In this document: positions 2 to 39,114 of the stretch, in pieces
How positions within the stretch are numbered: position 1 is the first letter of the stretch
How the letters are laid out: the number at the start of each line of letters is the position of its first letter
Origin: a virus
Length of the DNA: 39,666 nt
Reading direction: 5' to 3' (one strand)
Virus record (IMG/VR): IMGVR_UViG_3300042465_000805
Location: 1 to 39,666 of that record
Notes under the pieces: model-generated
What the model was told of the DNA's origin: nothing
Databases searched by the model: none
Seen by the model: the letters and a program-made list of their open reading frames with translations, nothing else
Translations under genes and position numbers: made by a program

Positions 2-2020
2 TGGGCACCGCCACCAGAAAAGCGGGTTGCACCGCCAGAGGCTCAACTCATTGACGCAATGCGTGCAGCAGGGCTTGAGCCACCAGAAGAAATCTTGATG
101 GACGGCAAGATTCACAGGTTCCGGTCAGGCACTAAAGGCGCACCTGGCCACGGTGACAAGCCAGGCTGGTATCTGGTGTTCGGGGACGGTATCCCAGCCG
201 GTCGGTTCGGATGTTGGCGTGCAGGCATAGAAGTCACATGGCGTGCAGACGTAGGACGCAAGCTGACTGAATTTGAGGAAATGGCCCACGCCAGGCGCAT
301 CAACGAGTCAAAAGTCCTGCGCGAAGCAGCTCAAGAGCGCCAGCATCAAGTCGCCAGTGAGACAGTGGAGAAAATCTGGCTCAGTGGTGTGGCGGCTCAC
401 CCTGATCATCCATACCTCAAACGCAAGGGCATCCAAACCCACGGTGTGCGCACCACAGGCGATGGCCGATTGATGGTGCCACTCTACGATGCAGACGGAA
501 CACTCAGCACCCTGCAATACATCGATGAGGATGGCGGCAAACTCTACCACCCAGGCGGTCAGACTGGCGGCAAGTTCTGGATGGTAGGCTCACTGGATGA
601 GCCTGGCACCCTGTTCGTGGCCGAGGGATTCGCAACGGCAGCAACCATCCACGAAACCACCGACAGGCCGGTCGTGGTGGCCTACAGCGCCAGCAATTTG
701 GTTCCGGTCACTGGCACACTCAGGCAAATGTATGGAGCAGCTCAAGACATCGTGATCGTCGCAGACCATGACCAAAGCGGTGTTGGCCAACGCTACGCAG
801 AGCAGGCCAGTGCCAAGTACGGTGCACGCATGGTTATGCCTCCGATACTCGGTGATGCCAACGATTATGCACAGGCTGGCCACGACCTTGCAGGTCTGCT
901 GATCCAACAGACCGGCACAGCGGTGATCGACAAACTCAAAGTCGTATTTGGTGACCAACTCGGCAGCGACTACGAAGCACCAGACGAGCTGGTCGAAGGC
1001 CTGATGACCATTGGCAGCTCGGTGGTGGTCTACGGTGACAGCAACTCAGGAAAAACATTCTGGGCGCTTTCGGTGGCCACAGCCATCGCCACAGGCACCG
1101 AGTGCTACGGCAGGAAGACCGACCCAGGCTTGGTGATCTATCTGGCCAGCGAAGCCCCAGCAAGCATTCGATCACGCATGCAGGCCATCAAGAAGTACCA
1201 CGGCTGCGAGCTTGAGAACTTGGCAATGGTGCCAGTCCCGATGAACTTCTACAACGGCGACCAAGATGCTCAAGATGTGATTGAACTGGTCAGAGCCATT
1301 GAGCAAATCAAAGGCAAGCCGGTGCGCCTGATCATCGGTGACACACTGGCCAGAATGAGCGCAGGAGCCAACGAAAACAGCGGCGAGGACATGGGGCCAG
1401 TCATGGCCAGATTCGATCAGGTGGCCACTGCCACAGGCGCAGCCCTGATGATCATCCACCACAATGGCAAAGACGCAGCCAAAGGCGCACGTGGATGGTC
1501 AGGCATCCGAGCACACATCGACACCGAAATCGAAGTAATCGAAAAAGAAGGCATCCGCATGGTCAACGTGACCAAACAGCGAGAACTGCCAAGCAAAGGC
1601 GAGGCGATCTACTTCAAACTGGAAGTGGTCGAGATGGGAATCTCAAAGTTCGGTGGCCCTGCAACAACCTGCGTGGCCATCCCAGACGATGAATCAAATG
1701 CCACAAAACCACACAAAAAACCCACAAAGCATGACGAGAATGTCAGGACAGTCGAGCGTGCTTGGTGGTCATCAGGTGCAGAAGAACGTGATGGTTTACC
1801 CTACCTGAGCAGGTCAGCACTGCGTGATCTGCTTGTCAAAGATGGCATGGCCGAGCGCACCGCAAAGAACAAAACAGAAGCATCCAGACCAGAAGGAATC
1901 ATCGCGCAATTGCTCAACGCAGGCACGCTGGAGACCTTCGAGCATGGCTGGATTTTCATCAACGAGGTTCAAGTCAGCGCCATGATGATGCAAAAAAGTG
2001 AGGCAAAGAATCGCCCCTAA
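2..2020 (+). CDS. Toprim primase-helicase, variant A (5' truncated)
   Basis: Replication primase-helicase expected to prime and unwind phage DNA in the cytoplasm. The start lies left of the window; by comparison with the copy at 32867 about 11 residues are missing. Counting from the internal Met at 59, the Toprim domain shows FVAEG (Glu189), VADHD (Asp236, Asp238) and GDANDY. A RecA/RepA-like hexameric helicase domain follows, with Walker A GDSNSGKT at 326-333, Walker B LIIGD ending at Asp428 and IIHH at 464-467. The C-terminus has a block beginning AWWSSGAEER. Residues from about 282 to 567 are unlike the second copy, so the ATPase domain has been exchanged. The stop codon lies inside the first of a series of GCCCCT repeats, so the origin-like region abuts the gene. 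Confidence 0.9.
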   Translation, partial: WAPPPEKRVAPPEAQLIDAMRAAGLEPPEEILMDGKIHRFRSGTKGAPGHGDKPGWYLVFGDGIPAGRFGCWRAGIEVTWRADVGRKLTEFEEMAHARRINESKVLREAAQERQHQVASETVEKIWLSGVAAHPDHPYLKRKGIQTHGVRTTGDGRLMVPLYDADGTLSTLQYIDEDGGKLYHPGGQTGGKFWMVGSLDEPGTLFVAEGFATAATIHETTDRPVVVAYSASNLVPVTGTLRQMYGAAQDIVIVADHDQSGVGQRYAEQASAKYGARMVMPPILGDANDYAQAGHDLAGLLIQQTGTAVIDKLKVVFGDQLGSDYEAPDELVEGLMTIGSSVVVYGDSNSGKTFWALSVATAIATGTECYGRKTDPGLVIYLASEAPASIRSRMQAIKKYHGCELENLAMVPVPMNFYNGDQDAQDVIELVRAIEQIKGKPVRLIIGDTLARMSAGANENSGEDMGPVMARFDQVATATGAALMIIHHNGKDAAKGARGWSGIRAHIDTEIEVIEKEGIRMVNVTKQRELPSKGEAIYFKLEVVEMGISKFGGPATTCVAIPDDESNATKPHKKPTKHDENVRTVERAWWSSGAEERDGLPYLSRSALRDLLVKDGMAERTAKNKTEASRPEGIIAQLLNAGTLETFEHGWIFINEVQVSAMMMQKSEAKNRP

Positions 2021-2123
2021 ACGCCCCTGACTGCCCCTAGGGGTTTTTAGGGATTAGGGGCAAAAGCCAGTTAAATCGCCCCGCCCCGCCCCTAAAGCGT
2101 ATACGCTAGGGGCAGGTAGGGGC
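2013..2123. repeat. GCCCCT iteron-like array, candidate origin A
   Basis: The hexamer GCCCCT occurs at 2013, 2023 and 2033, exactly 10 bp apart, and again at 2088. Its complement AGGGGC occurs at 2056, 2108 and 2118, the last two also 10 bp apart. A perfect 12-bp palindrome AGCGTATACGCT (2096-2107) sits between opposed hexamers. A DnaA box follows at 2151. Helical-turn spacing beside a primase-helicase gene is typical of initiator binding sites. Origin function is inferred. Confidence 0.6.
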
Positions 2124-2150
2124 AACTGGATGCGGGAAATCAGGGAAAAG

Positions 2151-2159: not shown

Positions 2160-2180
2160 GAAAAGTGAGCAGATACTAAC

Positions 2181-2363
2181 ATGACCAACCAACGAGAAAC
2201 GCCAGAATTCGCAAGCTGGGAACATGACACACTGGCCAAGTTTGCCAGAGACTGCTACACCAGGCTCCAAGATGAGCAGGCCGCAAACGAGCAACTCAGG
2301 AACGATCTCAAAGATGCCATGAAGCTGGCGCGAATTGAAAACATGAAGGACAATGCAGCATGA
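2181..2363 (+). CDS. Small conserved protein upstream of terminase
   Basis: A 60-residue, charged, probably helical protein with a likely coiled segment (LQDEQAANEQLRNDLKDAMK). No domain was recognised. It is conserved in the second copy (35101) with the same length and the same ATGA overlap with the terminase small subunit gene, so it is a real, co-translated gene. Position suggests a role linked to packaging or replication, but nothing in the sequence shows which. The ribosome-binding site is weak (GTGAG upstream). Confidence 0.8.
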   Translation: MTNQRETPEFASWEHDTLAKFARDCYTRLQDEQAANEQLRNDLKDAMKLARIENMKDNAA

Positions 2364-2812
2364 CCACAAAATCACACAAAGCAAAAGCGCCAACCAAGCG
2401 AACCAAGCCTGGCAGTGAAGACCGAGCAGTTATCTCTGACATGGTGCTGGAAGGAATGCGCAGCGGTCTGAGCGCCTTCAAAGCATGTCAAGCAGCTGGT
2501 GTTCCTCAAAGCACTTTCTCACGGTGGGTTGACGATGATGCTACGCTTGCGGAAAATTACGCACGCGCGAGGGAAGACCTGATCGAACGCATGGCCACAG
2601 AGATCATGGAGATCAGCGATCAAGATGTTGGCGTGGCCGTTGATGGCAAAAAAGACTGGGCGGCAGTGCAAAAGCACAGGCTGCAAGTTGACACCCGCAA
2701 ATGGCTGTTGTCCAAGCTGGCTCCAAAGAAGTTTGGCGACAAGATCGAGGTTTCTGGTGATCCTGCCAATCCCCTGGTGCAAAGAATTGAGCGCGTGGTG
2801 GTGAAATCTTGA
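2360..2812 (+). CDS. terS: Terminase small subunit
   Basis: A 150-residue protein that should recognise the packaging site and recruit the large subunit. The N-terminus is basic (KSHKAKAPTKRTKPG). It is followed by a helix-turn-helix with AFKACQAAGVPQSTFSRWV near residues 39-57, then a helical oligomerisation region. The C-terminal KWLLSKLAPKKFGDKIEV motif is characteristic of Sf6-like small terminases. Its start overlaps the preceding ORF (ATGA) and its stop overlaps the TTG start of the large subunit. It differs from the second copy at four residues only. Confidence 0.9.
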   Translation: MTTKSHKAKAPTKRTKPGSEDRAVISDMVLEGMRSGLSAFKACQAAGVPQSTFSRWVDDDATLAENYARAREDLIERMATEIMEISDQDVGVAVDGKKDWAAVQKHRLQVDTRKWLLSKLAPKKFGDKIEVSGDPANPLVQRIERVVVKS

Positions 2813-4032
2813 CAACGCTGCAACTCCAAACCCCAGAGTGGGCGCTGCCATTACTGGAGCCAAGCCGATACAAAGGCGCATGGGGTGGCCGAGGATCGGG
2901 CAAGTCCCACATGTTTGCCGAGCTCATGATCGAGGCCCACATCATGGATCAGAAGCGCAGAAGCGTCTGCGTCCGTGAAATCCAGAAGTCCCTCAACCAG
3001 TCGGTCAAGCGCCTGCTGGAGACCAAGATTCAGGACATGAACGCTGGCGCTTACTTCGAGGTGCAGGATGTGGTCATCAAGTCCAAGAAGGCCGATGGCG
3101 CGATCATCTTCCAGGGCATGCAGAACCACACCGCGGATTCGATCAAGTCGCTGGAAGGATACGACTGCGCCTGGGTGGAGGAAGCCCAAAGCCTGAGCCA
3201 GACCAGCCTCGACCTGCTGCGGCCAACCATCCGCAAACCAGAGTCCGAGCTATGGTTCACGTGGAACCCGCGTCAGCAGAACGACCCTGTCGACTTCCTG
3301 TTGCGCGGCCCGACACCGCCAAAAGACGCGACCGTCCTCAAAGTCAACTTCACCGACAATCCTTGGTTTCCATCTGTCCTGCGCGACGAGATGGAGTACG
3401 ACAAGAGGCGAGACCCCGACAAGTATCAGCATGTCTGGATGGGAAGTTACCTCACCAACAGCAATACCCGAGTTTTCAAGAACTGGCGCGTCGAGGACTT
3501 CGAGGCACCACCAGACGCAATCCACCGACTTGGTGCTGACTGGGGCTTCGCGGTCGACCCGACCACGCTGGTGCGCTGCCACATTATTGGCCGCACGCTG
3601 TACATCGACCATGAGGCCTACATGGTCGGCTGCGAAATCGTGAACACTCCCGAGCTGTTCATGCAGGTGCCAGAGGCCGAGAAGTGGCCAATCGTGGCCG
3701 ACTCAGCCAGGCCAGAGACGATCAGCCACATGAAGCGCAATGGCTTCCCCAAGATCATGACCGCGGTCAAAGGCCCGAAGTCGGTTGAGGAGGGCATCGA
3801 GTTCCTGAAGAACTACGACATCGTGGTGCACCCGCGATGCATTCACACCATTGACGAGCTGACGCTGTACAGTTACAAGCAAGACCCACTGACTGGCAAA
3901 ATCTTGCCGGTGCTGGAAGACAAGAAAAACCACGTGATCGATGCCTTGCGTTACGCTTGCGAAGGCGTGAGACGCTCGGCTGTTGCAAAGCCTGCAATCT
4001 TCACTCCATTGCCAAACGTGAAGAAATGGTGA
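2809..4032 (+). CDS. terL: Terminase large subunit
   Basis: ATP-driven DNA packaging motor and headful nuclease, 407 residues. The ATPase domain has Walker A GGRGSGKS at 26-33 and Walker B AWVEEA at 121-126. The RNase H-like nuclease domain has acidic residues in ADWGFAVD (Asp244), VADSARPE (Asp298) and HVIDALRYA (Asp378). It belongs to the Terminase_3 / PBSX XtmB-like group. The start is TTG, overlapping the terS stop as TTGA; the second copy has ATG at exactly the same place (35729), which supports this choice. Confidence 0.95.
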   Translation: MTTLQLQTPEWALPLLEPSRYKGAWGGRGSGKSHMFAELMIEAHIMDQKRRSVCVREIQKSLNQSVKRLLETKIQDMNAGAYFEVQDVVIKSKKADGAIIFQGMQNHTADSIKSLEGYDCAWVEEAQSLSQTSLDLLRPTIRKPESELWFTWNPRQQNDPVDFLLRGPTPPKDATVLKVNFTDNPWFPSVLRDEMEYDKRRDPDKYQHVWMGSYLTNSNTRVFKNWRVEDFEAPPDAIHRLGADWGFAVDPTTLVRCHIIGRTLYIDHEAYMVGCEIVNTPELFMQVPEAEKWPIVADSARPETISHMKRNGFPKIMTAVKGPKSVEEGIEFLKNYDIVVHPRCIHTIDELTLYSYKQDPLTGKILPVLEDKKNHVIDALRYACEGVRRSAVAKPAIFTPLPNVKKW

Positions 4033-4059
4033 GAAAATCACACAAAATGAGGATTTAAC

Positions 4060-6120
4060 ATGGCCCGACTCACAAATGATCAACGCCTTTCGAACCTGCA
4101 CGACGAAGCCCTCGCGCAATTCGATGATGTGCAAAGCGCACTGCGCGACGAGCGCCTGCAATGCCTCCAAGATCGGCGCTTCTACTCTTTGGCAGGCAGC
4201 CAATGGGAAGGCCCACTCTGGGATCAGTACGAGAACAAGCCCAAGTTTGAGGTCAACAAGATCATGCTGGCCGTGATCAGAGTGGTCAACGAATACCGAA
4301 ACAACCGCATCACCGTGGACTTTGTGTCCAAAGATGGCGTGGAGAATGACAAGCTGGCCGAGGTATGCGATGGCCTGTACCGATCAGACGAGCAGGCATC
4401 CGTGGCCGATGAAGCCTACGACAACGCCTTCGAGGAAGCGGTCGGCGGCGGCATCGGTGCCTGGCGCTTGCGCACAGTCTACGAAAACGAGGAAGACCCA
4501 GAGGACGACCGCCAGCGCATCCGCATTGAGCCAATCTTTGACGCTGACAGCTCGGTATTTTTTGACTTGCAGGCCAAGCGCCAAGACAAGGCCGATGCCA
4601 GATTCTGCTTCGTCGTCACATCGATGACGCAGCAGGCCTACAAAGACACATGGGGTGATGACCCAGCAAGCTGGCCAAAGATCATCCATCAGTACGAATT
4701 CGACTGGTGCACACCCGATGTTGTCTATGTGGCCGAGTACTTCAAGGTCGAGGAAAAGACCGAGACCATCCGCATCTTCCAGACCATTACAGGCGAGGAA
4801 GAACGCTACACCCAAGAAGACTTTGCCAAAGATGAAATGCTGGAAGAAACTCTGGCAGCCGTTGGCACAGTCGAGGTGCGCCAGCGCAAGATCAAGACCA
4901 AGCGCGTGCACAAGTACATCATGTCGGGCGGCAAGGTGCTGGAAGATGCAGGCTACATCGCAGGCAAGTGCATTCCCATCGTGGTCGTTTACGGCAAACG
5001 CTGGTTCGTCGACAACGTCGAGCGATGCATGGGCCATGTTCGCTTGGCCAAGGATGCCCAGCGCCTCAAGAACATGCAGCTCTCCAAGCTGGGTGAGATC
5101 AGCGCCCTGTCGTCGGTTGAGAAGCCAATCCTCACGCCTGAGCAGGTCGCTGGCCATCAGGTCATGTGGGCAGAGGACAACCTCAAAGACTATCCATATC
5201 TGCTGATCAACCCGATCACAGACCAGAATGGCAACCAGTCAGTCAGTGGCCCAGTTGCTTATACCCGATCGGCAGCTATTCCACCGGCAATGGCTGCGCT
5301 TTTGCAGATCACCGAAACCGACATGCAAGACATCTTGGGCAACCCAGCCGGTGCCGACAAGATGGTGAGCAATATCTCAGGCAAGGCCGTGGAGATGATT
5401 CAGGCCAGAGTCGATGGCCAGGCATTCATTTACATGAGCAACTTTGCCAAAGGCATGAAGCGATGCGGTGAAATCTGGCTGTCGATGGCACGCGATATCT
5501 ACACCGAAGACAAGCGCAAAATGAAGATCATCGCGGCCACTGGTGAGGCTGGCATGGTTGAACTGATGAAGCCAACCATCGATCAGGAAACTGGCGCAGT
5601 CGTCATGGAAAACGACCTGACCAGTGCCACATTTGATGTGATCGCAGATGTTGGCCCATCGAGCAGCACCAAGCGCCAGGCAACTGTCCGCGCCCTGACC
5701 GGCATGCTCCAGATCACCCAAGACCAAGAGACCGCGCAGGTGCTGACCGCAATGGCCATGATGAACATGGAAGGCGAGGGCATCGGAGATGCAAATGCTT
5801 ACTTCCGCAAGAAGCTCCTGCGCATGGGCGTGGTCAAGCCAACCGACATGGAAGCCGAAGAACTCATGGCCGAAATGCAGGGCGCACCACAAGACCCGAA
5901 TGCCATGTACCTGCAAGCCGCAGCCGAGAATGAAACTGCCAAGGCAGCCAAAGCTCGAGCCGATACCGTCGAAACCGTGGCCAGCGCAGAACTCAAACGC
6001 GCTCAAACGCTGGAGACGCTGGGCAAGGTCGACGAGACCGCGCAGAACATGGCGCTCACAAATGCAGAGGCAGTGCAGCAGATTTTGCAAGGCCAGATTG
6101 TTCAGCCTGTTGTCAGATAA
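4060..6120 (+). CDS. P22-type portal protein
   Basis: Portal subunit, 686 residues, close to the size of P22 gp1. It forms the dodecameric channel at one vertex through which DNA is packaged and ejected. Family-typical stretches include FEVNKIMLAVIRVVNEYRNN near residues 66-85, the acidic RLRTVYENEEDPEDDR and GHVRLAKDAQRLKNMQLSKL. The C-terminus is long, helical and Ala/Glu-rich, like the P22 portal barrel. The start is preceded by TGAGGA. The same length is found in the second copy (36980). It lies in the canonical order terS-terL-portal-scaffold-coat. Confidence 0.92.
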   Translation: MARLTNDQRLSNLHDEALAQFDDVQSALRDERLQCLQDRRFYSLAGSQWEGPLWDQYENKPKFEVNKIMLAVIRVVNEYRNNRITVDFVSKDGVENDKLAEVCDGLYRSDEQASVADEAYDNAFEEAVGGGIGAWRLRTVYENEEDPEDDRQRIRIEPIFDADSSVFFDLQAKRQDKADARFCFVVTSMTQQAYKDTWGDDPASWPKIIHQYEFDWCTPDVVYVAEYFKVEEKTETIRIFQTITGEEERYTQEDFAKDEMLEETLAAVGTVEVRQRKIKTKRVHKYIMSGGKVLEDAGYIAGKCIPIVVVYGKRWFVDNVERCMGHVRLAKDAQRLKNMQLSKLGEISALSSVEKPILTPEQVAGHQVMWAEDNLKDYPYLLINPITDQNGNQSVSGPVAYTRSAAIPPAMAALLQITETDMQDILGNPAGADKMVSNISGKAVEMIQARVDGQAFIYMSNFAKGMKRCGEIWLSMARDIYTEDKRKMKIIAATGEAGMVELMKPTIDQETGAVVMENDLTSATFDVIADVGPSSSTKRQATVRALTGMLQITQDQETAQVLTAMAMMNMEGEGIGDANAYFRKKLLRMGVVKPTDMEAEELMAEMQGAPQDPNAMYLQAAAENETAKAAKARADTVETVASAELKRAQTLETLGKVDETAQNMALTNAEAVQQILQGQIVQPVVR

Positions 6121-6144
6121 CTGAAAAAGGGCGAGAATGTGATA

Positions 6145-6175
6145 AACGGCATCCACCCAGCCGTTCTAATGGGTG
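6145..6175 (+). promoter_or_regulatory. Conserved leader with two competing hairpins before scaffold
   Basis: In the gap between portal and scaffold, AACGGC (6145-6150) can pair with GCCGTT (6160-6165), while CACCCA in its loop (6154-6159) can instead pair with TGGGTG (6170-6175). The two stems cannot form together. The stretch is identical in the second copy (39065-39095) although flanking coding DNA has diverged. A nine-codon ORF starts at ATG 6169 and its stop overlaps the scaffold ATG at 6195 (ATGA). This could tune scaffold translation; function is inferred. Confidence 0.4.
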
Positions 6176-6194
6176 AGTTTGATGGGGTCAGAAG

Positions 6195-7091
6195 ATGAAC
6201 ATAAAGGCAGTATCAGGAGAAGAAAACCAAGACGGTGACACCATCGTCATTGAGGATGAAGGCCAAAGCACTGAGCAAACCACCGACGAGCAACAATCCG
6301 TTGGCGACCAGGGCGAAGACCAGAGCACCGAAGATGACGAAGGCGAACCGGACGAAGTTGTCGTCTCCATTGGTGAGGAAGCGCCACCTCCCGAAGAACA
6401 GACTCATGCGCCTGAATGGGTACGAGAGCTGCGTAAGACGAACAGAGAATTGCAACGGCAAAACCGTGAACTGCAAGGCAAGCTACAAAGCACCGCACAG
6501 ACTGAGACCAAGCCGGTCGTGCTGGGCAAGAAGCCAAGCCTAGAAGATCACGATTATGACGCTGACAAATTCGAGGTAGCACTGGCTGATTGGTTTGAGC
6601 GCAAGCGACAAGCTGATGAGTCAAATGCCAAGCAAGAAGCTGAAGTTATGAATCAGCAAAAAGCATGGCAAGCCAAACTGGATGGCTACGGCAAGGCGAA
6701 AGCCGAGCTGAGAGTCAAAGATTTTGAAGACGCTGAGGCCGTGGCCCAAGAGTTGTTCAACATCACCCAGCAAGGCGTGGTGCTCCAAGGTGCAGATAAT
6801 CCTGCGCTCGTCATCTACGCACTCGGAAAGAACCCAAAGAAGGCCAAAGAGCTGTCCGACATTAAAGACCCTGTAAAGTTTGCCTTTGCGGTAGCAAAAC
6901 TGGAGAAAGAATTGAAAGTTACAAACCGTAAGGCAGCCCCGCCACCCGAGAGAATCGTGTCAGGAACTGGCCGAGTATCTGGGGCGGTGGACTCAACCCT
7001 CGAACGGCTGCGAGAAGAAGCGGCTCGTACTGGCAACATGACGAAAGTCGTGCAGTACAAGGCGCAGAAGAGAGCAGCTTCATCTAAATGA
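6195..7091 (+). CDS. Scaffolding protein
   Basis: A 298-residue protein between portal and coat genes, the P22 gp8 position and about its length (P22 scaffold is 303 residues). The first 70 residues are strongly acidic (IVIEDEGQ, EDDEGEPDEV, SIGEE). A coiled coil follows (ELRKTNRELQRQNRELQGKL), then helical charged sequence, ending in a basic tail (KVVQYKAQKRAASSK), like the basic coat-binding helix of known scaffolds. It should template procapsid assembly and then leave. Identification rests on order and composition more than on a sequence motif. Confidence 0.8.
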   Translation: MNIKAVSGEENQDGDTIVIEDEGQSTEQTTDEQQSVGDQGEDQSTEDDEGEPDEVVVSIGEEAPPPEEQTHAPEWVRELRKTNRELQRQNRELQGKLQSTAQTETKPVVLGKKPSLEDHDYDADKFEVALADWFERKRQADESNAKQEAEVMNQQKAWQAKLDGYGKAKAELRVKDFEDAEAVAQELFNITQQGVVLQGADNPALVIYALGKNPKKAKELSDIKDPVKFAFAVAKLEKELKVTNRKAAPPPERIVSGTGRVSGAVDSTLERLREEAARTGNMTKVVQYKAQKRAASSK

Positions 7092-28625: not shown

Positions 28626-29910
28626 TGATCTGATCCTGTATACGTTGGCCAATCCACCTTACAACTGGCACAGCCCAGCTGTTGCCTAATGCCTTATACC
28701 TTGGCCCATCTGGTGACTCAGCCGCTTTACGCCAAGGAATATTGGTGTAACCATCAGGAAAACCTTGTAGACGCTCGCACTCTGTAGGTGTCAGTCTGCG
28801 CACCGCCATTGATGTTGCAATTCCCTGCGTAGCATGTGTGTCTACGGTATAACTAGTACCATCATTGTTCCATCCTTTGCCGTTTTGCGATTTTTCACGA
28901 GTTGTGATGTCCTGCAAAGCAATTGGTTGCGCCACCGCATGACGATCAATTGTGTTTTGCGTAAAGCAAACTTCAACATTGATGCCATCACCTTGTGGGC
29001 CTGCGTTGTCGTTTCTGCCGATCATGTTGCCTTGAATGGCATATGTTGGTTGCATAAAACTTTGCACAAACATTCCGCCTTTTTGACTATCTATGTGCTG
29101 ATTGTTTTGACCTAACTTGTCGCCAAAGTCTGCGGTAAGCGTTGGAGCGACTTCTGGCGGCCATACAACCATTGCATCAGCTTCTACTCTTTCGTTCCCT
29201 GTGCGACTGAAAGGAGGGCCGTTTGTAACGCAGGGGGCAATTCTTTGCCCCTCTTTTCGGCTCTGCGGAGTATCCCTGCGCACGCCTTCGAACTCAAAAA
29301 GAATCTCTGTGGGATTGATGTCGTCTCTAGCACTTGCGACAACGAACACACGCCTCCTACGTTGGGCCACTCCGAAATATTGGGCATCAAGGACTCGCCA
29401 CGCGACTGTTCTTTGGGGACCAAACACACAACCAGCGTTTGACCATCTTTCCCCTGGTGCTGTGATCGGATCGCTTTCACCGGCAAGTGCTCCAAGAAAG
29501 CAGCCGAATGCATTGTCTTTGGTGTTGAGGACTCCTGGCACGTTTTCCCAGAAGATGATTGCTGGAGCATCTCGTCGAATAGATCGAACATGGTCAATTG
29601 CATTTGCTATCCCTACAAATGTGAGTGAAAGATTACCTCTGGCATCGTCCAGAGAGTTACGAAGACCAGCCACAGAAAAGGCTTGGCATGGAGTGCCGCC
29701 ACAGAACAAGTCTGGAGCTTCAACTTCACCAGACAGAATCTTCTCTGGCAATAGTGTCATGTCTCCATGATTGGGAACATCAGGGTAGTGATGCTTGAGA
29801 ACAGCACAGGGGAATGGCTCAATCTCAGACAGCCATGCAGCTTTCCACCCAAGTGGATTCCAAGCAACAGAGGCCGCTTCAATACCAGAACAAACAGAAC
29901 CGAATTTCAT
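28615..29910 (-). CDS. dcm: C5-cytosine DNA methyltransferase
   Basis: A 431-residue DNA (cytosine-5) methyltransferase using S-adenosylmethionine. Motif I FGSVCSGIEAAS (3-14), motif IV GGTPCQAFSVAG with catalytic Cys75, motif VI ENVPG (122-126), motif VIII QRRRRVF, motif IX RRLTPTECERLQGFPDGYT, motif X GNSWAVPV. The recognition region between VIII and IX is long, about 175 residues, and its DNA looks more AT-rich than the rest of the operon. No partner endonuclease is adjacent, so it is likely an orphan phage methylase protecting against host restriction. Confidence 0.93.
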   Translation of the reverse strand: MKFGSVCSGIEAASVAWNPLGWKAAWLSEIEPFPCAVLKHHYPDVPNHGDMTLLPEKILSGEVEAPDLFCGGTPCQAFSVAGLRNSLDDARGNLSLTFVGIANAIDHVRSIRRDAPAIIFWENVPGVLNTKDNAFGCFLGALAGESDPITAPGERWSNAGCVFGPQRTVAWRVLDAQYFGVAQRRRRVFVVASARDDINPTEILFEFEGVRRDTPQSRKEGQRIAPCVTNGPPFSRTGNERVEADAMVVWPPEVAPTLTADFGDKLGQNNQHIDSQKGGMFVQSFMQPTYAIQGNMIGRNDNAGPQGDGINVEVCFTQNTIDRHAVAQPIALQDITTREKSQNGKGWNNDGTSYTVDTHATQGIATSMAVRRLTPTECERLQGFPDGYTNIPWRKAAESPDGPRYKALGNSWAVPVVRWIGQRIQDQINAA

Positions 29911-30932
29911 CCCACAATCCTTCCACCAAAGTCCTTGCGCATTTCAGCAATCAAAGGATCACCACTGGTGCAGGCATCGGAATTGGCCAACAACTCCTTG
30001 CTACCCCACACGCCTTCCTGCTCAGGGTCTCCATTGGCTAGATTCACACCATTGATCTCATACACAGCGGTGAACTCGTCAGGACCATCCTTGCGCTGCC
30101 AAGGCACCAGATCGGGATGCAAGACATGCGACTCGCAGCCAGTGCGCTGGGAATCCAAAGGAATCTCAGCATCCCACTTAGCGCAGTGCCAAGTCGAGTC
30201 AGGCATTGCTGTGGCCAAAGCGCAGGTGCGGCAATTCACATGCTTGGTGGTCTTGGACTGGTGGCAGAACTCATGCGCATCGCAGAACTTGCACTGATAC
30301 CAGCTCGCATCTGAGCTGATCGGCTCAGGCATGCGATCACTCAAAGCAATGCGCTGGCCACGAGCAATGGCCTTGCCTGCCACATCCTTGTCGAACTTCA
30401 CGCGCTCGGTGTGGATGCGGTCGTCATCCTTGCAGACCGTCAAGTACAGCGCACGATCGATGCCAGTGCCAGCCATGTAGACCTGCATCTGCACAAAGTG
30501 CTCAGGCTTGGACTTCTCCACGCCATTCTTCTCCAGATCGTCAAATGCTTTTTTGGATGCCGTTTTGAACTCGGCAATGTGCTTGGACTTGGGCGCATCT
30601 GGCACACCCTTGTCAATGATCGCATCGATGCTGCCAGACACATGGCTGCCAAAATCTACACGGTGCTGGCTCGACACCTTGCGCACATCGATGCCAATGG
30701 CACGCAAGTCGCTGATGATGTTGGCCTCCTCTTGGTGGCCACGCCTAAACAGGCGCAGGATGCGACCAGGGAAGGTTGGCTGCACAGCCCATCGGAAAGA
30801 CAGCCACAGCCAACGATCACACACATGGCCAAGCGTACTGGCTCCAAGGTGTGGGCGAGGCACCTCGGCAATGGCCTCATGGTGCTTGTCAATCAACGAC
30901 TGGATGCTATTATCTGGCTCAGGGATTTTCAT
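29907..30932 (-). CDS. Cas4-like PD-(D/E)XK exonuclease
   Basis: A 341-residue protein with a RecB/Cas4-type nuclease core: SGSIDAIID (Asp103), HIAEFKTASKK (Glu121, Lys123) and a QMQVYMAG helix (Gln148). Cys38 and a CKFCDAHEFC cluster (214-223) could hold a 4Fe-4S cluster as in Cas4 and AddB. Further cysteines follow (CRTC, WHC). It likely produces single-stranded ends for the Sak4/DUF669 annealing system. AAGGAGA lies before the ATG; its stop overlaps the methyltransferase start. Confidence 0.87.
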   Translation of the reverse strand: MKIPEPDNSIQSLIDKHHEAIAEVPRPHLGASTLGHVCDRWLWLSFRWAVQPTFPGRILRLFRRGHQEEANIISDLRAIGIDVRKVSSQHRVDFGSHVSGSIDAIIDKGVPDAPKSKHIAEFKTASKKAFDDLEKNGVEKSKPEHFVQMQVYMAGTGIDRALYLTVCKDDDRIHTERVKFDKDVAGKAIARGQRIALSDRMPEPISSDASWYQCKFCDAHEFCHQSKTTKHVNCRTCALATAMPDSTWHCAKWDAEIPLDSQRTGCESHVLHPDLVPWQRKDGPDEFTAVYEINGVNLANGDPEQEGVWGSKELLANSDACTSGDPLIAEMRKDFGGRIVG

Positions 30933-30956
30933 GTTTGTCTCTCCTTTGATGAGTTT

Positions 30957-30992
30957 GCCCAGACCAGTTCACGCTAGTCTGGGCATTTTTTT
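30957..30992 (+). terminator. Plus-strand terminator within the leftward operon
   Basis: GCCCAGAC (30957-30964) and GTCTGGGC (30977-30984) form an 8-bp stem with a 12-nt loop, followed by ATTTTTTT. The T-run is on the plus strand, so it would stop rightward, antisense transcription, not the leftward mRNA. It lies in the 62-bp gap between the DUF669 and nuclease genes. Confidence 0.65.
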
Positions 30993-30994
30993 GC

Positions 30995-31495
30995 TTACTT
31001 CTTAGCCCAAGGTGGCGCGGCCTTGGCAGTCGCTGCCTGAGCAGCCTCAGCCTGCTTCACAAATGGCGGCACATTGGCAGCTGGCGCTGCACTGCCAGAC
31101 ACAGACTTAAAGCCCTTGACCTCATTGCTCGCACCGTACTGAGCGTCCTCTTTGACCTCCAGCTTGATGGCGATCTGGCCACCAATCAACTGATCGGTGT
31201 CGGTCACTTTGGCCAAGCCAATCGCACGCATGATGTCTCCGAGCTGCTGGCGACCAATCTCCTCGGCCTTGGGATTGGCATTCTTTATGTTCAGATTGCC
31301 AAACACCACACGACCTTGATGGCTTGGACCAGTGATGTCATAACGCAGCTTGATGTACTGGCCATTTCCTGCCTTGGTTGCCTTCAGCTCAGACTGAGAG
31401 ATGGTGGCGGTGTACCAGCCAGCAGGCAGAGGCTCAAAGTTGCCATTGCCTTGGGGCAGTTCGTTGACATTGAATTCTTCGTTTAAAAAAGCCAT
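30995..31495 (-). CDS. DUF669 family protein, probable ssDNA-binding
   Basis: A 166-residue protein. The family pattern is clear: FEPLPAGWYTATISQSELKA, KAGNGQYIKLRYDITGPSHQ, GRVVFGNLNIKNANPKAEEI and ASNEVKGFKSV. DUF669 proteins lie in phage recombination cassettes and are thought to bind ssDNA. The C-terminus is Ala/Pro-rich, ending PPWAKK, not the acidic tip of SSB. The AAGGAG site is formed by the final codons of the upstream gene. Confidence 0.87.
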   Translation of the reverse strand: MAFLNEEFNVNELPQGNGNFEPLPAGWYTATISQSELKATKAGNGQYIKLRYDITGPSHQGRVVFGNLNIKNANPKAEEIGRQQLGDIMRAIGLAKVTDTDQLIGGQIAIKLEVKEDAQYGASNEVKGFKSVSGSAAPAANVPPFVKQAEAAQAATAKAAPPWAKK

Positions 31496-31498
31496 GAT

Positions 31499-31894
31499 TT
31501 ACTCCTTGGGGATAATTTTGAAAGATGGGCGGCCAGGCTTGACCGTGATTGCACCGGCAAGCGGTTTGGTGATGGACTCATCTGCTGCCTTCCAGATGGC
31601 CATGTTGATCTCAGGCTTCCAGCGAAACAACTTGGCCAAGTGATCGGTCAGACCGAACTCAGCGGCAAGCTCTTGCACTTTGTCTCCGTCGACCTTGCGG
31701 TCAATTCGGCCAACGATCTTGATCTCGAATCGACCAGGTTCGATGGTTTCTGTGCCTTCAAGGTTTTCGGCAATGGTTGCCAACTTCTTGATGTGGTCCT
31801 CAATATCGCGTCGATCTGCTGTCGCATCTTCTTCCTGTTGTTTCGCACGTAGCCACATTTGGGCCAGCTCATTCATGTCGGTAGTCTCAATCAT
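31499..31894 (-). CDS. Conserved recombination-cassette protein
   Basis: A 131-residue protein. The first half is a charged helix (LRAKQQEEDATADRRDIEDH), the second half contains RFEIKIVGRIDRKVDGDKVQ, LFRWKPEINMAIWKAADESI and TVKPGRPSFKI. I recognise this from between Sak4 and DUF669 genes in other phages, but not its activity. The layout recalls Gam-like nuclease inhibitors only loosely. The start overlaps the Sak4 stop by ATGA. Confidence 0.75.
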   Translation of the reverse strand: MIETTDMNELAQMWLRAKQQEEDATADRRDIEDHIKKLATIAENLEGTETIEPGRFEIKIVGRIDRKVDGDKVQELAAEFGLTDHLAKLFRWKPEINMAIWKAADESITKPLAGAITVKPGRPSFKIIPKE

Positions 31895-32568
31895 GCTTTG
31901 CCTCCGATCTTGGCAATGATTGCACCCAGATCAGGCGCTTCCCAAGCCTCCAACTTGCCAGAGCGATCCTTGGCCAGCCACAGGCCATCAGAGTCGCACA
32001 TCAAAGCACGCTGGGTCACGCCTTCGGCATCACGCTCAACACGCAGCGCCAGCACTTCATCAAAGAAGTAAGGTAGGCCTTGTGTCAGGCTCTTGCCAGG
32101 CATGCCTGGGTTGTAGAGCATCTTGCCCATCTCATCGGTGGACTTCTCCAGCTTGGCCGACATGTAAACATGCTTGCCTGGCAGATCGCGGAAGGCGCGA
32201 ATCAGCTCCTGCATGGTGCTGTTCATCTCGCCATAAGCTGCGCGGCCATCTTTGGACTTCTTCATCTCATGGGACAACACCACCTCAGCAACTTCGCTGA
32301 TCGAGTCAAGCGCCACCGACTGAAAGCCTGCGGCCTCCTTGCTGTCTCTGGCCCATGTAAAAGCCTCGCGCAAGTCGTCCATCGAGGCGATCTCGATGTA
32401 AGGCAAGTCAGCGTCCTGAATGGACAGCAGGCCACCCTCGGCACTGAGAACGATCACATTGGGCAGGGTCTTGACAAGCGTGGTCTTACCAGCACCGGCT
32501 TGGCCGTACACCAACAACTTCACTCCATTGGCAGACAAGCTGCCGGTCGATTTCAAATTGATAGCCAT
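31891..32568 (-). CDS. Sak4-type RecA-like ATPase, ssDNA annealing
   Basis: A 225-residue P-loop protein. Walker A GQAGAGKTT at 22-30, Walker B SVALDSIS (Asp88). The short RecA-core length, the motif VIVLSAEGGLLSIQ and the position next to DUF669 and a nuclease match Sak4/AAA_24 phage recombinases, which pair single strands with help from SSB. AGGAGAG lies before the ATG. It is the first gene of the leftward operon, transcribed from the divergent promoter region. Confidence 0.87.
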   Translation of the reverse strand: MAINLKSTGSLSANGVKLLVYGQAGAGKTTLVKTLPNVIVLSAEGGLLSIQDADLPYIEIASMDDLREAFTWARDSKEAAGFQSVALDSISEVAEVVLSHEMKKSKDGRAAYGEMNSTMQELIRAFRDLPGKHVYMSAKLEKSTDEMGKMLYNPGMPGKSLTQGLPYFFDEVLALRVERDAEGVTQRALMCDSDGLWLAKDRSGKLEAWEAPDLGAIIAKIGGKA

Positions 32569-32688: not shown

Positions 32689-32874
32689 ATGATGACTGTT
32701 GAGCAAATCAAAAAACGGCTTGAAGATGCCAATCTCAAGCGAGTGGCCGAGAATGCTGGCGTGCATCCAGCCACGGTTTACAGGTTCATGCAAGAGGAAT
32801 CCAAGCCCCTGTATGAGACGGTCAAAGCCCTGAGCGACTACCTCAGCAGGCAGGAGGCCACAATCAATGGCTGA
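32689..32874 (+). CDS. Small Cro/CI-like HTH regulator
   Basis: A 61-residue protein with a helix-turn-helix: IKKRLEDANLKRVAENAGVH then PATVYRFMQEES and a final helix ETVKALSDYLSRQEA. It is the first gene rightward of the divergent promoters and probably autoregulates them. AAGGTG lies before the ATG and is itself part of the outer inverted repeat, so binding could also block translation start. A second ATG at 32692 is possible. It overlaps the primase-helicase start by eight bases. Confidence 0.82.
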   Translation: MMTVEQIKKRLEDANLKRVAENAGVHPATVYRFMQEESKPLYETVKALSDYLSRQEATING

Positions 32875-34882
32875 CCTCTCAAAAGTACTTGGCGGTCCTT
32901 GGGCACCACCACCCGAGAAACTTGTCGCACCACCAGAGGCGCAGCTCATCGATGCAATGCGTGCGGCAGGCCTCCAGCCACCAGAGGAAATCCTCATGGA
33001 TGGAAAGATTCACAGATTCAAATCAGGCACCAAAGGCGCACCTGGCCACGGTGACAAGCCAGGCTGGTATCTGGTGTTCGGAGACGGCATCCCAGCCGGT
33101 CGATTCGGATGCTGGCGAGCAGGCATGGAAGTGACATGGCGTGCAGACGTAGGACGAAAACTCACGCAGACCGAGGAAATGTCACACGCCAAGCGACTGG
33201 CCGAGGCCAAAGCCCTGCGAGACGCAGCCCTTGAGCGCCAGCACCAAGTGGCCAGCGACACGGTCGAGAAAATCTGGACAACGGCCAACCCAGCAAATGC
33301 CGAGCATCCATACTTGGCCAAGAAGGGCATTCAAACACATGGCGCACGAATCACAGGAGACGGTCGGCTGGTGCTGCCACTCTATGACGAAGACGGAACA
33401 CTGGCCACATTGCAGTACATCGACCATGAAGGCGGAAAGCTCTACCACCCAGGCGGTCAGACAGGCGGCAAGTTTTGGATGGTAGGCTCACTAGATGAGC
33501 CTGGCACGCTGTTCGTGGCCGAGGGCTTCGCAACGGCAGCCACAATCCATGAAACCACCGACAGGCCGGTCGTGGTGGCTTACAGCGCCAGCAATCTGGT
33601 GCCAGTCACTGGCACACTCAGGGAAATGTATGGAGCAACTCAAGACATCGTGATCGTCGCAGACCATGACCAAAGCGGTGTCGGACAACGTTACGCAGAA
33701 CAAGCAAGTGCCAAATACGGTGCACGCATGGTGATGCCTCCGATACTCGGTGATGCCAACGATTATGCACAGGCTGGCCACGATCTGGCAGGCCTGCTCA
33801 TGCCACCGGCAGACGACTGGCTCATCCCAGCCGACGACTTCTGCGCACAGCCCAGCCCCATCAGCTGGCTGGTAAAGCGCTGGATTCAATCCCAAGCCCT
33901 AGTGATGGTCCACGGCCCAAGCGGTGGCGGCAAAACATTCGTGGTGCTCGACTGGTGCCTGCGCATGGCCAGCGGAACAGAAGACTGGGCAGGCCACAAG
34001 GTGCGCCAAGGCAACGTGGTCTATCTGGCCGGTGAAGGCCATCACGGTCTGCGCGGCAGGGTGGCAGCTTGGAAGCACCACCACAAAGCAGGAAAGCTGG
34101 CCATGTGGCTCTCAAAAGATGGCTGCGACCTCAACACCCCGACCGGCTACCTCAAAGTGGTCGAGCAAGTCAGGATGCTGAAAGACAGGCCCAGCGTGAT
34201 CGTGGTCGACACCCTGCACCGATTCCTATCAGGCGATGAAAACAGCGCACAAGATGCCAAGACCATGCTGGACGCATGCAACGCACTCATGCAGGAATTC
34301 AACTGCTCGGTGATCTTGGTTCACCACACAGGCGTGTCAGACGAAGCCCAGCACAGGGCGCGAGGCTCAAGCGCATGGCGAGGTGCTCTGGACATCGAGA
34401 TCAGCATCGTTCCAGGCAAAGAAGGCGTGCCCATGCAGATCGTGCAGCGCAAGTCCAAAGACGCAGAACTGGCCGAGACCATTCACGTTGAGCTGCAACA
34501 AGTGGCTATCCCTGGCTGGCGCGATGAAGACGACCAGCAAGTGACCAGCGCTGTGATCATCCAAGCCCAAGCGCCAACTGTGACCAAAAAAGACAGCAAG
34601 ATCGACAGCCATCGCAAGACTTTCGAGAACGCTTGGTGGTCATCAGGAGCCGAAGAACGCAATGGTTTGCCTTACCTAAGCCGGTCGGCCATGATGGAAT
34701 ACTTGGTGCAGAAAATGAACGTGAGCGAGTCATCAGCCAAGGTTTACATCAAGCCAAGCGCGACAGGGAAACCCATCGCTGACATGTTGGTGGCCGAAAT
34801 AATCGAGTCCTTTGAGCATGGCTGGATCGTGATTGATGACACTCAAGCAAGCGTCATGATGATCAGAAAGTCAGAGCGATGA
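32867..34882 (+). CDS. Toprim primase-helicase, variant B (complete)
   Basis: A 671-residue replication protein. The N-terminal ~310 residues match variant A closely, with Toprim residues Glu219, Asp266 and Asp268. The helicase half is different: Walker A GPSGGGKT at 350-357, Walker B VIVVD ending at Asp448, LVHH at 484-487 and a RARGSSAWRGALDIE motif typical of RepA-like hexameric helicases. Similarity returns at AWWSSGAEERNGLPYLSRSA. ATG 32867 overlaps the HTH gene. The stop is five bases before two DnaA boxes. Confidence 0.92.
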   Translation: MADLSKVLGGPWAPPPEKLVAPPEAQLIDAMRAAGLQPPEEILMDGKIHRFKSGTKGAPGHGDKPGWYLVFGDGIPAGRFGCWRAGMEVTWRADVGRKLTQTEEMSHAKRLAEAKALRDAALERQHQVASDTVEKIWTTANPANAEHPYLAKKGIQTHGARITGDGRLVLPLYDEDGTLATLQYIDHEGGKLYHPGGQTGGKFWMVGSLDEPGTLFVAEGFATAATIHETTDRPVVVAYSASNLVPVTGTLREMYGATQDIVIVADHDQSGVGQRYAEQASAKYGARMVMPPILGDANDYAQAGHDLAGLLMPPADDWLIPADDFCAQPSPISWLVKRWIQSQALVMVHGPSGGGKTFVVLDWCLRMASGTEDWAGHKVRQGNVVYLAGEGHHGLRGRVAAWKHHHKAGKLAMWLSKDGCDLNTPTGYLKVVEQVRMLKDRPSVIVVDTLHRFLSGDENSAQDAKTMLDACNALMQEFNCSVILVHHTGVSDEAQHRARGSSAWRGALDIEISIVPGKEGVPMQIVQRKSKDAELAETIHVELQQVAIPGWRDEDDQQVTSAVIIQAQAPTVTKKDSKIDSHRKTFENAWWSSGAEERNGLPYLSRSAMMEYLVQKMNVSESSAKVYIKPSATGKPIADMLVAEIIESFEHGWIVIDDTQASVMMIRKSER

Positions 34883-34886
34883 TGAC

Positions 34887-35086
34887 TTATCCACAGACTT
34901 ATCCACAGGCTGATAATGGTAACAACGGAACGGAACGGAAAAAAACGGAACGCAGTTCCCTTGGTAAAACAGCGCAAAACGGGAACGGAACGGAACACAC
35001 ACCTTTAGGTGTGTTCCCAGTTCCCTTGCGATGCGGATCAATTCCATGCCGTATTAGTAAAAACCCTTAGTCAAAAGTTATCCACA
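34887..35086. other. Candidate replication origin B: DnaA boxes and CGGAA iterons
   Basis: The 218-bp gap has three perfect TTATCCACA boxes (34887-34895, 34899-34907, 35078-35086). Between them CGGAA repeats occur at 34926, 34931, 34936, 34946, 34986 and 34991, with inverted GTTCC partners near 34955 and 35012-35022. ACACACC-TTTA-GGTGTGT (about 34996-35013) forms a hairpin. The layout is typical of a theta-type origin with initiator repeats; function is inferred. A 63-residue ORF spanning it looks like repeat translation. Confidence 0.65.
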
Positions 35087-35100
35087 GGTAGATCAAGAAA

Positions 35101-35283
35101 ATGACCAAACAAAGAGAAACCCCAAACTTCGCAACATGGCAACATGACACGCTGGCTAAGTTTGCAACCGAGGTCTACATCCGACTCCAAGATGAGCAGG
35201 CCGCGAACGAGCAACTCAGGATGGATTTAAAAGATGCCATGAAACTAGCGCGAATCGAAAACATGAAGGACAATGCAGCATGA
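35101..35283 (+). CDS. Small conserved protein upstream of terminase (copy 2)
   Basis: The 60-residue homologue of the ORF at 2181, differing by about ten residues (for example TEVYIRLQDE for RDCYTRLQDE). The C-terminal LKDAMKLARIENMKDNAA is unchanged. ATGA overlap with terS is kept. Conservation of reading frame across a diverged DNA sequence supports translation. Confidence 0.8.
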   Translation: MTKQRETPNFATWQHDTLAKFATEVYIRLQDEQAANEQLRMDLKDAMKLARIENMKDNAA

Positions 35284-35732
35284 CCACAAAATCACACAAA
35301 GCAAAAGCGCCAGCCAAGCGAACTAAGCCTGGCAGTGAAGACCGAGCCGTGATCGCTGACATGGTGCTGGAAGGAATGCGCAGCGGTCTGAGCGCATTCA
35401 AAGCATGTCAAGCAGCTGGTGTTCCTCAAAGCACATTCTCACGGTGGGTGGATGATGATGCTATCCTTGCGGAAAATTACGCGCGCGCGAGGGAAGACTT
35501 GATCGAACGCATGGCCACAGAGATCATGGAGATCAGCGATCAAGACGTTGGCGTGGCCGTAGATGGCAAGAAAGACTGGGCGGCAGTACAAAAGCACAGA
35601 CTGCAAGTTGACACACGCAAATGGCTTTTGTCCAAGCTGGCCCCAAAGAAGTTTGGCGACAAGATCGAGGTTTCTGGCGATCCTGCCAATCCCCTGGTGC
35701 AAAGAATTGAGCGCGTGGTCGTCAAGGCATGA
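35280..35732 (+). CDS. terS: Terminase small subunit (copy 2)
   Basis: 150 residues, with four visible substitutions against the copy at 2360 (positions 12, 26, a Thr-to-Ile near 62, and the last residue). The HTH and the C-terminal KKFGDKIEV are unchanged, so both copies should recognise the same or a very similar packaging site. It overlaps terL as ATGA. Confidence 0.9.
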   Translation: MTTKSHKAKAPAKRTKPGSEDRAVIADMVLEGMRSGLSAFKACQAAGVPQSTFSRWVDDDAILAENYARAREDLIERMATEIMEISDQDVGVAVDGKKDWAAVQKHRLQVDTRKWLLSKLAPKKFGDKIEVSGDPANPLVQRIERVVVKA

Positions 35733-36952
35733 CAGTTTTACAGCTTCCAACCCCTGAGTGGGCAGTGCCACTGCTGGAGCCAAGCCGATACAAAGGCGCT
35801 TGGGGTGGCCGAGGCTCCGGCAAGTCTCACATGTTTGCCGAGCTGATGATCGAGGCCCACATCATGGACCAGAAGCGCAGAAGCGTCTGCGTGCGTGAAA
35901 TCCAGAAGTCGCTCAACCAGTCGGTCAAGCGCCTGCTCGAAACCAAGATCGAGCAAATGAACGCTGGCGCATACTTCGAGGTGCAAGAGGCCGTGATCAA
36001 GTCGCGCAAAGGCGATGGCATGATCATCTTCCAAGGCATGCAAAACCACACAGCCGACTCGATAAAGTCGCTTGAAGGTTACGACTGCGCTTGGGTGGAG
36101 GAGGCTCAAAGCCTGAGCCAGACCAGCCTTGACCTGCTGCGGCCAACCATCCGCAAGCCAGACTCCGAGCTGTGGTTTACGTGGAATCCGCGCCAGCAGA
36201 ATGACCCTGTCGACTTCTTGCTGCGCGGTCCGACACCACCAAAGGACGCGCAAGTCCTGAAGGTCAACTTCACCGATAACCCTTGGTTTCCACAAGTCCT
36301 GCGCGATGAGATGGAGTACGACAAGAGGCGCGACCCCGACAAATACCAGCATGTCTGGATGGGAAGCTACCTCACAAACAGTAACACCCGAGTGTTCAAG
36401 AACTGGCGCGTCGAGGACTTCGAGGCACCACCAGACGCAATCCACCGGCTCGGTGCAGACTGGGGCTTTGCGGTCGACCCGACCACACTGGTGCGCTGCC
36501 ACATCATTGGCCGCACGCTGTACATCGATTACGAGGCCTACATGGTCGGATGCGAGATCGTCAACACGCCTGAGCTGTTCATGCAGGTGCCCGAGGCCGA
36601 GAAGTGGCCAATCGTGGCCGACTCAGCCAGACCAGAGACGATCAGCCACATGAAAAAGAATGGCTTTCCAAAGATCATGACAGCGGTCAAAGGTCCGAAG
36701 TCGGTCGAGGAAGGCATCGAGTTCCTGAAGAACTACGACATCGTCGTGCACCCTCGGTGCATCCACACAATTGACGAGCTGACGCTGTACAGTTACAAGC
36801 AAGACCCACTGACCGGCAAAATCTTGCCGGTGCTCGAAGACAAGAAAAACCACGTGATAGATGCCCTGCGTTACGCTTGCGAAGGTGTGAGACGATCGGC
36901 CATCACGAAGCCTGCAACATTCACTCCATTGCCAAATGTAAAGAAATGGTGA
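35729..36952 (+). CDS. terL: Terminase large subunit (copy 2)
   Basis: 407 residues. Walker A GGRGSGKS, AWVEEA and nuclease aspartates are all kept. Differences from copy 1 (about 18) cluster in residues 74-100 and at both ends. The ATG start here confirms the TTG start chosen at 2809. Its 3' end precedes the portal by 27 bases with a TGAGGA ribosome-binding site. Confidence 0.95.
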   Translation: MTVLQLPTPEWAVPLLEPSRYKGAWGGRGSGKSHMFAELMIEAHIMDQKRRSVCVREIQKSLNQSVKRLLETKIEQMNAGAYFEVQEAVIKSRKGDGMIIFQGMQNHTADSIKSLEGYDCAWVEEAQSLSQTSLDLLRPTIRKPDSELWFTWNPRQQNDPVDFLLRGPTPPKDAQVLKVNFTDNPWFPQVLRDEMEYDKRRDPDKYQHVWMGSYLTNSNTRVFKNWRVEDFEAPPDAIHRLGADWGFAVDPTTLVRCHIIGRTLYIDYEAYMVGCEIVNTPELFMQVPEAEKWPIVADSARPETISHMKKNGFPKIMTAVKGPKSVEEGIEFLKNYDIVVHPRCIHTIDELTLYSYKQDPLTGKILPVLEDKKNHVIDALRYACEGVRRSAITKPATFTPLPNVKKW

Positions 36953-36979
36953 GAAAATCACACAAAATGAGGATATAAC

Positions 36980-39040: not shown

Positions 39041-39064
39041 ACGAAAAAGCGCGAGAATGTGATA

Positions 39065-39095
39065 AACGGCATCCACCCAGCCGTTCTAATGGGTG
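39065..39095 (+). promoter_or_regulatory. Scaffold leader hairpins (copy 2)
   Basis: The same competing AACGGC/GCCGTT and CACCCA/TGGGTG stems as at 6145-6175, with no base change in this stretch. The nine-codon ORF overlapping the scaffold start (ATG 39089) is also unchanged. Confidence 0.4.
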
Positions 39096-39114
39096 AGTTT
39101 GATGGGGTCAGAAG

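Follow-up and report, generated by a model that had tools for sequence, protein, structure and literature searches.

Rep of SaPIs and Cch2 of SCCmec are AAA+ helicases. The C-terminal domains of both bind short iterons located directly downstream of the helicase's own gene (Ubeda 2007, as cited in PMC7581432, together with the data of the latter), and for Cch2 it has been shown biochemically that the isolated C domain binds its repeats (PMC7581432). In the pri-rep-ori modules of Gram-negative PICIs, primase and initiator are sometimes fused, and the ori, with two sets of iterons, lies immediately 3′ (PMC6092414). In RepA of the PLE satellites of Vibrio cholerae, which has a RepA_N domain, the DNA-binding domain and the origin covary and are swapped as a module, and replication is cognate-only (Barth et al. 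2021, PMC8263062). The same study puts forward, as the selective force, an origin-directed nuclease carrying a RepA-like domain (PMC8263062). Geminivirus iterons are 5–6 nt long, conserved in position and diversified in sequence between close relatives (PMC12548392).

Here we analyzed a window of 39,666 nt, the whole of a single virus contig (IMG/VR record IMGVR_UViG_3300042465_000805), which encodes two primase-helicases, each followed by a repeat array. The layout resembles that of SaPI Rep and Cch2 in that the iteron array comes directly after the stop codon; the arrays are putative origins, and reading of the iterons by the C domain is supported by covariation and the winged-helix model. 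In SaPI Rep and Cch2 systems the primase is separate, whereas here a Toprim primase is fused to the helicase. Moreover, unlike these AAA+ helicases, the core is of the RecA-fold RepA type (AAA_25, PDB 1g8y). In this respect the locus is like RSF1010 RepA: both cores belong to AAA_25, and the second protein matches 1g8y at 2.2e-6. However, RSF1010 has a separate iteron-binding protein, RepC, while the putative DNA-binding domain is fused to the helicase here. As in PLE RepA, the putative DNA-binding domain covaries with the array as a module and the rest of the protein is conserved. PLE RepA initiates replication of a satellite and carries its DNA-binding domain N-terminally, with three iterons of ~30 bp, whereas the proposed reader here is a C-terminal winged helix belonging to the primase-helicase of the phage itself, and the iterons are 5–6-bp words, about ten of which occur. 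PICIs are likewise satellite elements, and their iteron sets flank an AT-rich stretch, in contrast to the variable palindrome flanked by the present iterons. Geminivirus iterons are similar in size and diversification, but Rep of these ssDNA viruses is an unrelated rolling-circle protein. No literature was found on the present phage group. What is new here is a RepA-type core with a fused Toprim half, a putative reader domain without a Pfam family, how many words and changes of word occur, and a residue-level switch in natural alleles that are nearly identical.

Two primase-helicases and two arrays within one contig

Comparison of the window with itself by blastn revealed that its ends are duplicated 32.9 kb apart, the first 6.7 kb resembling the last 6.8 kb with 84–91% identity outside an exchanged part. 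Positions 1–906 match 32899–33805 (84% nucleotide identity), after which similarity stops. A 56-nt match (1760–1815 to 34631–34686, 86%) coincides with the AWWSSGAEER joint, and lasting similarity restarts at 2178–6746, matching 35098–39666 (91%). The duplicated ends indicate that the contig consists of two related phages of about 33 kb (~32.9 kb), head to tail. Its gene content includes TerS, TerL and a P22-like portal.

Primase-helicase A (2–2020, plus strand; 5′ end cut by the window) comprises a Toprim half (Toprim_3, 7.8e-12), a RepA-type core and a C-terminal domain. Core A, of the AAA_25/RSF1010 RepA type (AAA_25, 2.2e-31), spans 899–1759 and has the Walker A motif GDSNSGKT; the C-terminal domain, predicted to be a winged helix, spans 1760–2017. 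Primase-helicase B (671 aa; 32867–34882, plus strand) has core B at 33797–34630, with Walker A GPSGGGKT, and its C-terminal domain, also a predicted winged helix, at 34631–34879. N-terminal Toprim_3 is found in both proteins (45.9 and 45.5 bits). The initial annotation described near-identity up to the end of the Toprim half and divergence thereafter. This is borne out, as the Toprim halves are 88% identical and the breakpoints agree within a few nucleotides. It also considered the helicase cores unrelated-looking, which does not stand. Both cores, each with a Walker A motif, match AAA_25 (PF13481) at 109 and 130 bits against a Pfam cut-off of 27, and the proteins are 34% identical over 356 columns after the Toprim half, C domain included; the cores are therefore diverged relatives. 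The rejoining noted at AWWSSGAEER corresponds to the 56-nt match, but the C-terminal domains beyond it have diverged again (54% amino acid identity).

Different repeats downstream of each helicase had been reported as well, and both arrays are confirmed. Array A (2010–2135) contains seven AGGGGC/GCCCCT words (at 2013, 2023, 2033, 2056, 2088, 2108 and 2118), the first overlapping the end of the helicase gene; of the 11 occurrences of AGGGGC in the window, 7 fall between 2013 and 2123. Array B (34919–35032) contains nine GGAAC words in both orientations, with a period of 5 in places and GGAACG/CGGAAC clustered at 34926–34996. Each array includes a palindrome, GCCCCTAAAGCGTATACGCTAGGGGC at 2088–2113 in array A and GGAACACACACCTTTAGGTGTGTTCC at 34992–35017 in array B. 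The consensus DnaA box TTATCCACA occurs four times in the whole window, each time at one of the two arrays: on the plus strand at 2151–2159, at 34887 and 34899 (34887–34907), and at 35078–35086. The boxes at 34887 and 34899 are indeed the two extra ones claimed for copy B. The box at 2151/35078 is common to both copies, as stated, although blastn places the resumption of similarity better at 2178/35098, just past it.

In most arrays a palindrome lies between the iterons, with arms that vary between relatives yet stay complementary (for example, ACACCCC-TTTA-GGGGTGT and CCCCATC-TTTA-GATGGGG). Perfect stems of at least 8 were found in 162 of 227 arrays versus 9 of 227 shuffles. We rejected a terminator as the role of the palindrome, there being no T run after it in the window. 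GC skew was discarded as origin evidence; it is too weak and is confounded with gene direction.

The head-to-tail joining may itself have been made by assembly, which raises the question of whether the exchange is only apparent and stems from the assembly of two strains into one record. The window does join two strains, and at least two other records do likewise. The 60.7-kb record behind L009 (loci L490–L492) holds two differing copies, ~89–91% identical over their best parts, and the 40.7-kb record behind L111 (L493, L494) has 2.4 kb repeated at 93% as well as an exact 127-nt repeat, a feature typical of assembly. Such strain joining resembles assembly through circularly permuted populations. 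However, half A is found singly in several other contigs (97–99%) and half B singly in L006 (100%), so the exchange does not depend on how the contig was joined, and comparable breakpoints return in many contigs. We therefore regard an assembly origin of the exchange as extremely improbable and treat the exchange as genuine.

Adjoining the cassette before the primase-helicase, the minus strand (29907–32568) encodes a Sak4-like annealing protein, an SSB-like protein and a Cas4-type exonuclease. Recombination genes beside the locus could promote cassette exchange, a guess from gene content. A search of bacterial genomes with the Toprim query, for a prophage or host clue, found no relative.

The protein region that tracks the repeat word

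Several hundred homologous loci were collected in eight scans of viral contigs and by tblastn on phage records; the main set consisted of 164 long, distinct homologs with enough downstream DNA, taken from the first five scans. Core identity turned out to be bimodal, exceeding 60% within a type and lying mostly at 25–40% between types, with no values at 45–60%. The Toprim half, on the other hand, forms one continuum across both main core types, and the core type switches 12 times on the Toprim tree. AGGGGC accompanies core A in 62 of 64 relatives and in 13 of 13 loci fetched later. L173 has a near variant of this word together with an A-like recognition helix. Core B, by contrast, occurs with GGTAAC (33), GGAAC (30), AGGGGG (20), GGGTCA (6), AGGGGC (1, L314) and other words (4). 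A third core, with six members, is accompanied by GGGACA. In L205 and L328 no clear array was seen. L282 has a GGTAAC-type C domain, but the DNA after position 6183 looks foreign and contains no array, representing either a contig error or a disrupted locus.

We asked which part of the protein follows the word. Within core B, identity in windows of 12 columns predicted a shared word with an AUC of mostly 0.48–0.65 over the Toprim half and core, but the AUC peaked at 0.96 at the recognition helix, in the stretch GMAERTAKNKTEASRPEG / NVSESSAKVYIKPSATGK. The Toprim tree requires at least 38 changes of word and the core-B tree 23, whereas the C-domain tree needs 7. Likewise, among pairs at least 92% identical in Toprim half and core, 151 with unlike words had a mean C-domain identity of 0.59, compared with 0.93 for 321 with the same word. 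Core-B pairs that are ~95–100% identical over most of the core diverge strongly between the beginning of the C domain (about −240 nt relative to the stop codon) and the end of the array (about +200 nt), and then match again. Together with the window, these limits point to two nested cassettes. The larger, seen in the window, is core, C domain and array; the smaller, seen within core B, is C domain and array only. With the array standing for the origin, both covariation with the putative DNA-binding domain and modular swapping are thus observed.

Could the helicase core nevertheless recognize its repeats, with the C domain a mere passenger? The nearly constant pairing of core A with AGGGGC would fit, as would the block-like difference of core, C domain and array in the window. 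Yet core B, despite its identity of over 60% within the type, occurs with five words, and some core-B pairs are 98% identical through Toprim half and core while their words differ. Moreover, L314 has the A word although its core is of type B, and its C domain is A-like (67% identical to A, 49% to B). The core as the determinant is accordingly rejected as very unlikely. The initial annotation had proposed that helicase type and iteron type segregate together as a specificity cassette whose helicase recognizes its own iterons, and had named one helicase type with several repeat types as evidence against this. That combination is found for core B. The idea of a cassette survives in modified form, since a part of the protein does track the word, but this part is the C domain of ~83 residues rather than the core. 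As judged from the aligned loci, the specificity cassette comprises the array and the predicted winged-helix domain, and its key is the recognition helix.

Among loci fetched later, C domain and array formed 63 distinct combinations that had not been seen before. The word was predicted correctly in 45 of 45 loci whose recognition segment shares at least 60% identity with one already known, a set only partly independent of the first because many of these loci are close relatives. The other 18 loci have newer segments and many new words, including GGTTCA, GGTACA, GGTACC, CGTAAC, CGCAAC and GTGACA. GGTAAC was found again in L349, a distant relative with AKQY.

Cultivated phages share this organization. 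Alteromonas phages PB15 and XX1924, Idiomarinaceae phage 1N2-2 and Salicola phage CGphi29 encode a similar primase-helicase with an array of its own word immediately 3′, namely GGTTCA (13 copies in PB15, 12 in XX1924), GGTACA (11 in 1N2-2) and GGGACA (6 in CGphi29). In all four, a small gene, regulator-like in most, precedes the helicase. Their annotations mark no origin in the array stretch. Among the four cultivated isolates checked, none has TTATCCACA within 300 nt of the array; two are present in MW202867.

The repeats might instead be a pac site or an operator, read by TerS, by the Cro-like protein encoded before the helicase or by a host protein. Headful phages keep pac near terS, and in the window array A is indeed just upstream of terS (copy A at 2360–2812, copy B at 35280–35732, both on the plus strand). 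However, the two TerS copies are 97% identical although the arrays differ completely, and the Cro-like proteins are 98–100% identical among phages with AGGGGC, AGGGGG, GGAAC and GGTAAC arrays. In PB15, furthermore, the stretch around the array contains no annotated terminase gene. The near constancy of both proteins alongside differing words led us to reject TerS and the Cro-like protein as readers, and we give a pac or operator role very little credence. The word thus varies independently of the core, TerS and the Cro-like protein.

Predicted fold of the C domain and a fine switch of the word

AlphaFold2 modeling of 66 natural C domains gave a pLDDT of 91.8 and helices at 30–39, 44–51 and 59–66, followed by a two-strand wing. 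Based on the covariation and the general HTH pattern, we infer that helix 44–51 of the model is the recognition helix. Together with the next loop (GMAERTAKNKTEASRPEG) it is encoded at 1844–1897 of the plus strand in A. Foldseek comparison of the model with PDB produced no match below an E-value of 0.05; the best-scoring entries were for the most part CRP-, IclR- and CggR-like winged-helix regulators, together with MotA. A Pfam search returned no family for the domain, and a PDB sequence search with it gave nothing meaningful. RepA_N (PF06970) was not supported, with weak matches in 3 of the 66 members (best E-value 0.04).

The finest resolution is offered by C-domain cluster 7, in which 30 GGAAC and 29 GGTAAC arrays can be aligned in register. 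The copies of the word change in concert, while the spacing, an A-tract and the GGGCAAAACAGC-like and GATGCGG-like stretches are kept. With GGAAC, position 37 is occupied by V (29) or T (1); with GGTAAC, it is always Q (29 of 29). Position 44 also completely separates the two sets. Independent pairs on supported branches of the Toprim tree agree in 7 of 7 cases (p=0.016). In two pairs (L248/L226 and L227/L251) the whole C domains differ solely by V37Q, A43S and T44P; A3T is added in L213/L215 and L231/L215, and A70M in L245/L256. Position 37 maps to model helix 44–51 and positions 43–44 to the loop after it. The corresponding codons of B, V37 to T44, are at 34742–34765 (plus strand).

The C domain and the array are adjacent, and many exchanges span the block from about −240 to +200 nt, so recombination could simply carry neighbors along together with no functional match between them. 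The near-identical pairs speak against this. They have 8–9 nucleotide differences within a 36-nt recognition island, and 1–2 differences over the next 108 nt to the stop codon in four of the five pairs, beyond which the array switches its word. The contrast between island and following stretch is significant for L248/L226, L227/L251 and L213/L215 (Fisher p 1e-4 to 5e-4) and weaker for L245/L256 (p 0.015), which has 11 differences past the island. Had one block been exchanged, the roughly 100 nt of almost unchanged coding sequence that separate island and array would have been replaced as well. Neither the concerted change of the word copies within a preserved array architecture nor the location of the association peak, at the recognition helix and not at the domain end closest to the array, suits mere linkage. 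We consequently judge block linkage unlikely, with a small chance left to it, and favor recognition of the word by the C domain. To judge from the alignments, the array may have been exchanged whole instead of mutated copy by copy, since the spacer palindrome also changes in near-identical pairs.

Proposed mechanism and related loci

We propose that the helicase recognizes its own origin through the C domain and the array, combining a layout like that of SaPI Rep and Cch2 with the modularity of PLE RepA and a RepA-type helicase. Considering the sequence comparisons, the predicted fold and the analogies, we assign this reading a probability of roughly 0.84. The cassette would consist of the ~83-residue C-terminal winged-helix domain and a ~120–170-bp array of 5–6-bp iterons starting at or near the stop codon. 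The recognition helix would read the iteron word, the C domain of A being the candidate reader of AGGGGC and that of B of GGAAC. With several subunits bound to the array, the RepA-type hexameric helicase would be positioned at the phage origin, beside boxes for host DnaA, and priming would fall to the Toprim half. The domain lies next to the array, and conserved DNA borders the two (the core or the AWWSSGAEER joint upstream; the DnaA box and downstream genes after), so recombination could move them as one functional unit. Finer changes of the word would involve a few recognition residues and matching array changes.

The arrays are probably origins, in which case these loci, from aquatic phages of a common group, form a natural record of how a virus alters the address of its replication start. 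A record of protein–DNA specificity rewriting this frequent and clean, with about ten words in one architecture, is rare. In near-identical natural alleles three residues accompany a one-letter repeat change, which makes a residue-to-base code of a putative replication initiator testable with natural variants. Phage origins of this group should also be predictable from sequence alone, and another kind of helicase with modular origin identity would stand beside SaPI Rep and PLE RepA.

More tentatively, and with somewhat less than even confidence, we suggest that the locus acts as a system of origin identity that evolves fast in these abundant freshwater phages. Selection for diversity would keep many words in play, exerted perhaps by competitor phages sharing the helicase, by satellites or by origin-directed nucleases such as Odn. 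On this view, a residue-to-base code of a new winged-helix family could be read from the alleles, and the domain that reads the word would in some genomes have become a separate gene behind the array or part of a fusion with another domain.

In two core-B loci, L287 (6864–7300) and L292, the helicase ORF ends just past the AWW joint and is followed by a CTACCC-like array and then by a separate small winged-helix ORF, which matches the domain profile with an E-value of 6e-27; L296 and L313 carry the same kind. An ORF behind the array fuses a weak winged-helix copy to a ~95-aa domain (KANYW) in L287 (7255), L027 (8167), L313 (1274) and L315 (7213). The layout of this fusion recalls that of an origin-directed protein such as Odn. 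The KANYW domain, for which neither Pfam nor PHROGs gave a match, otherwise occurs by itself as a small protein, as seen in many relatives.
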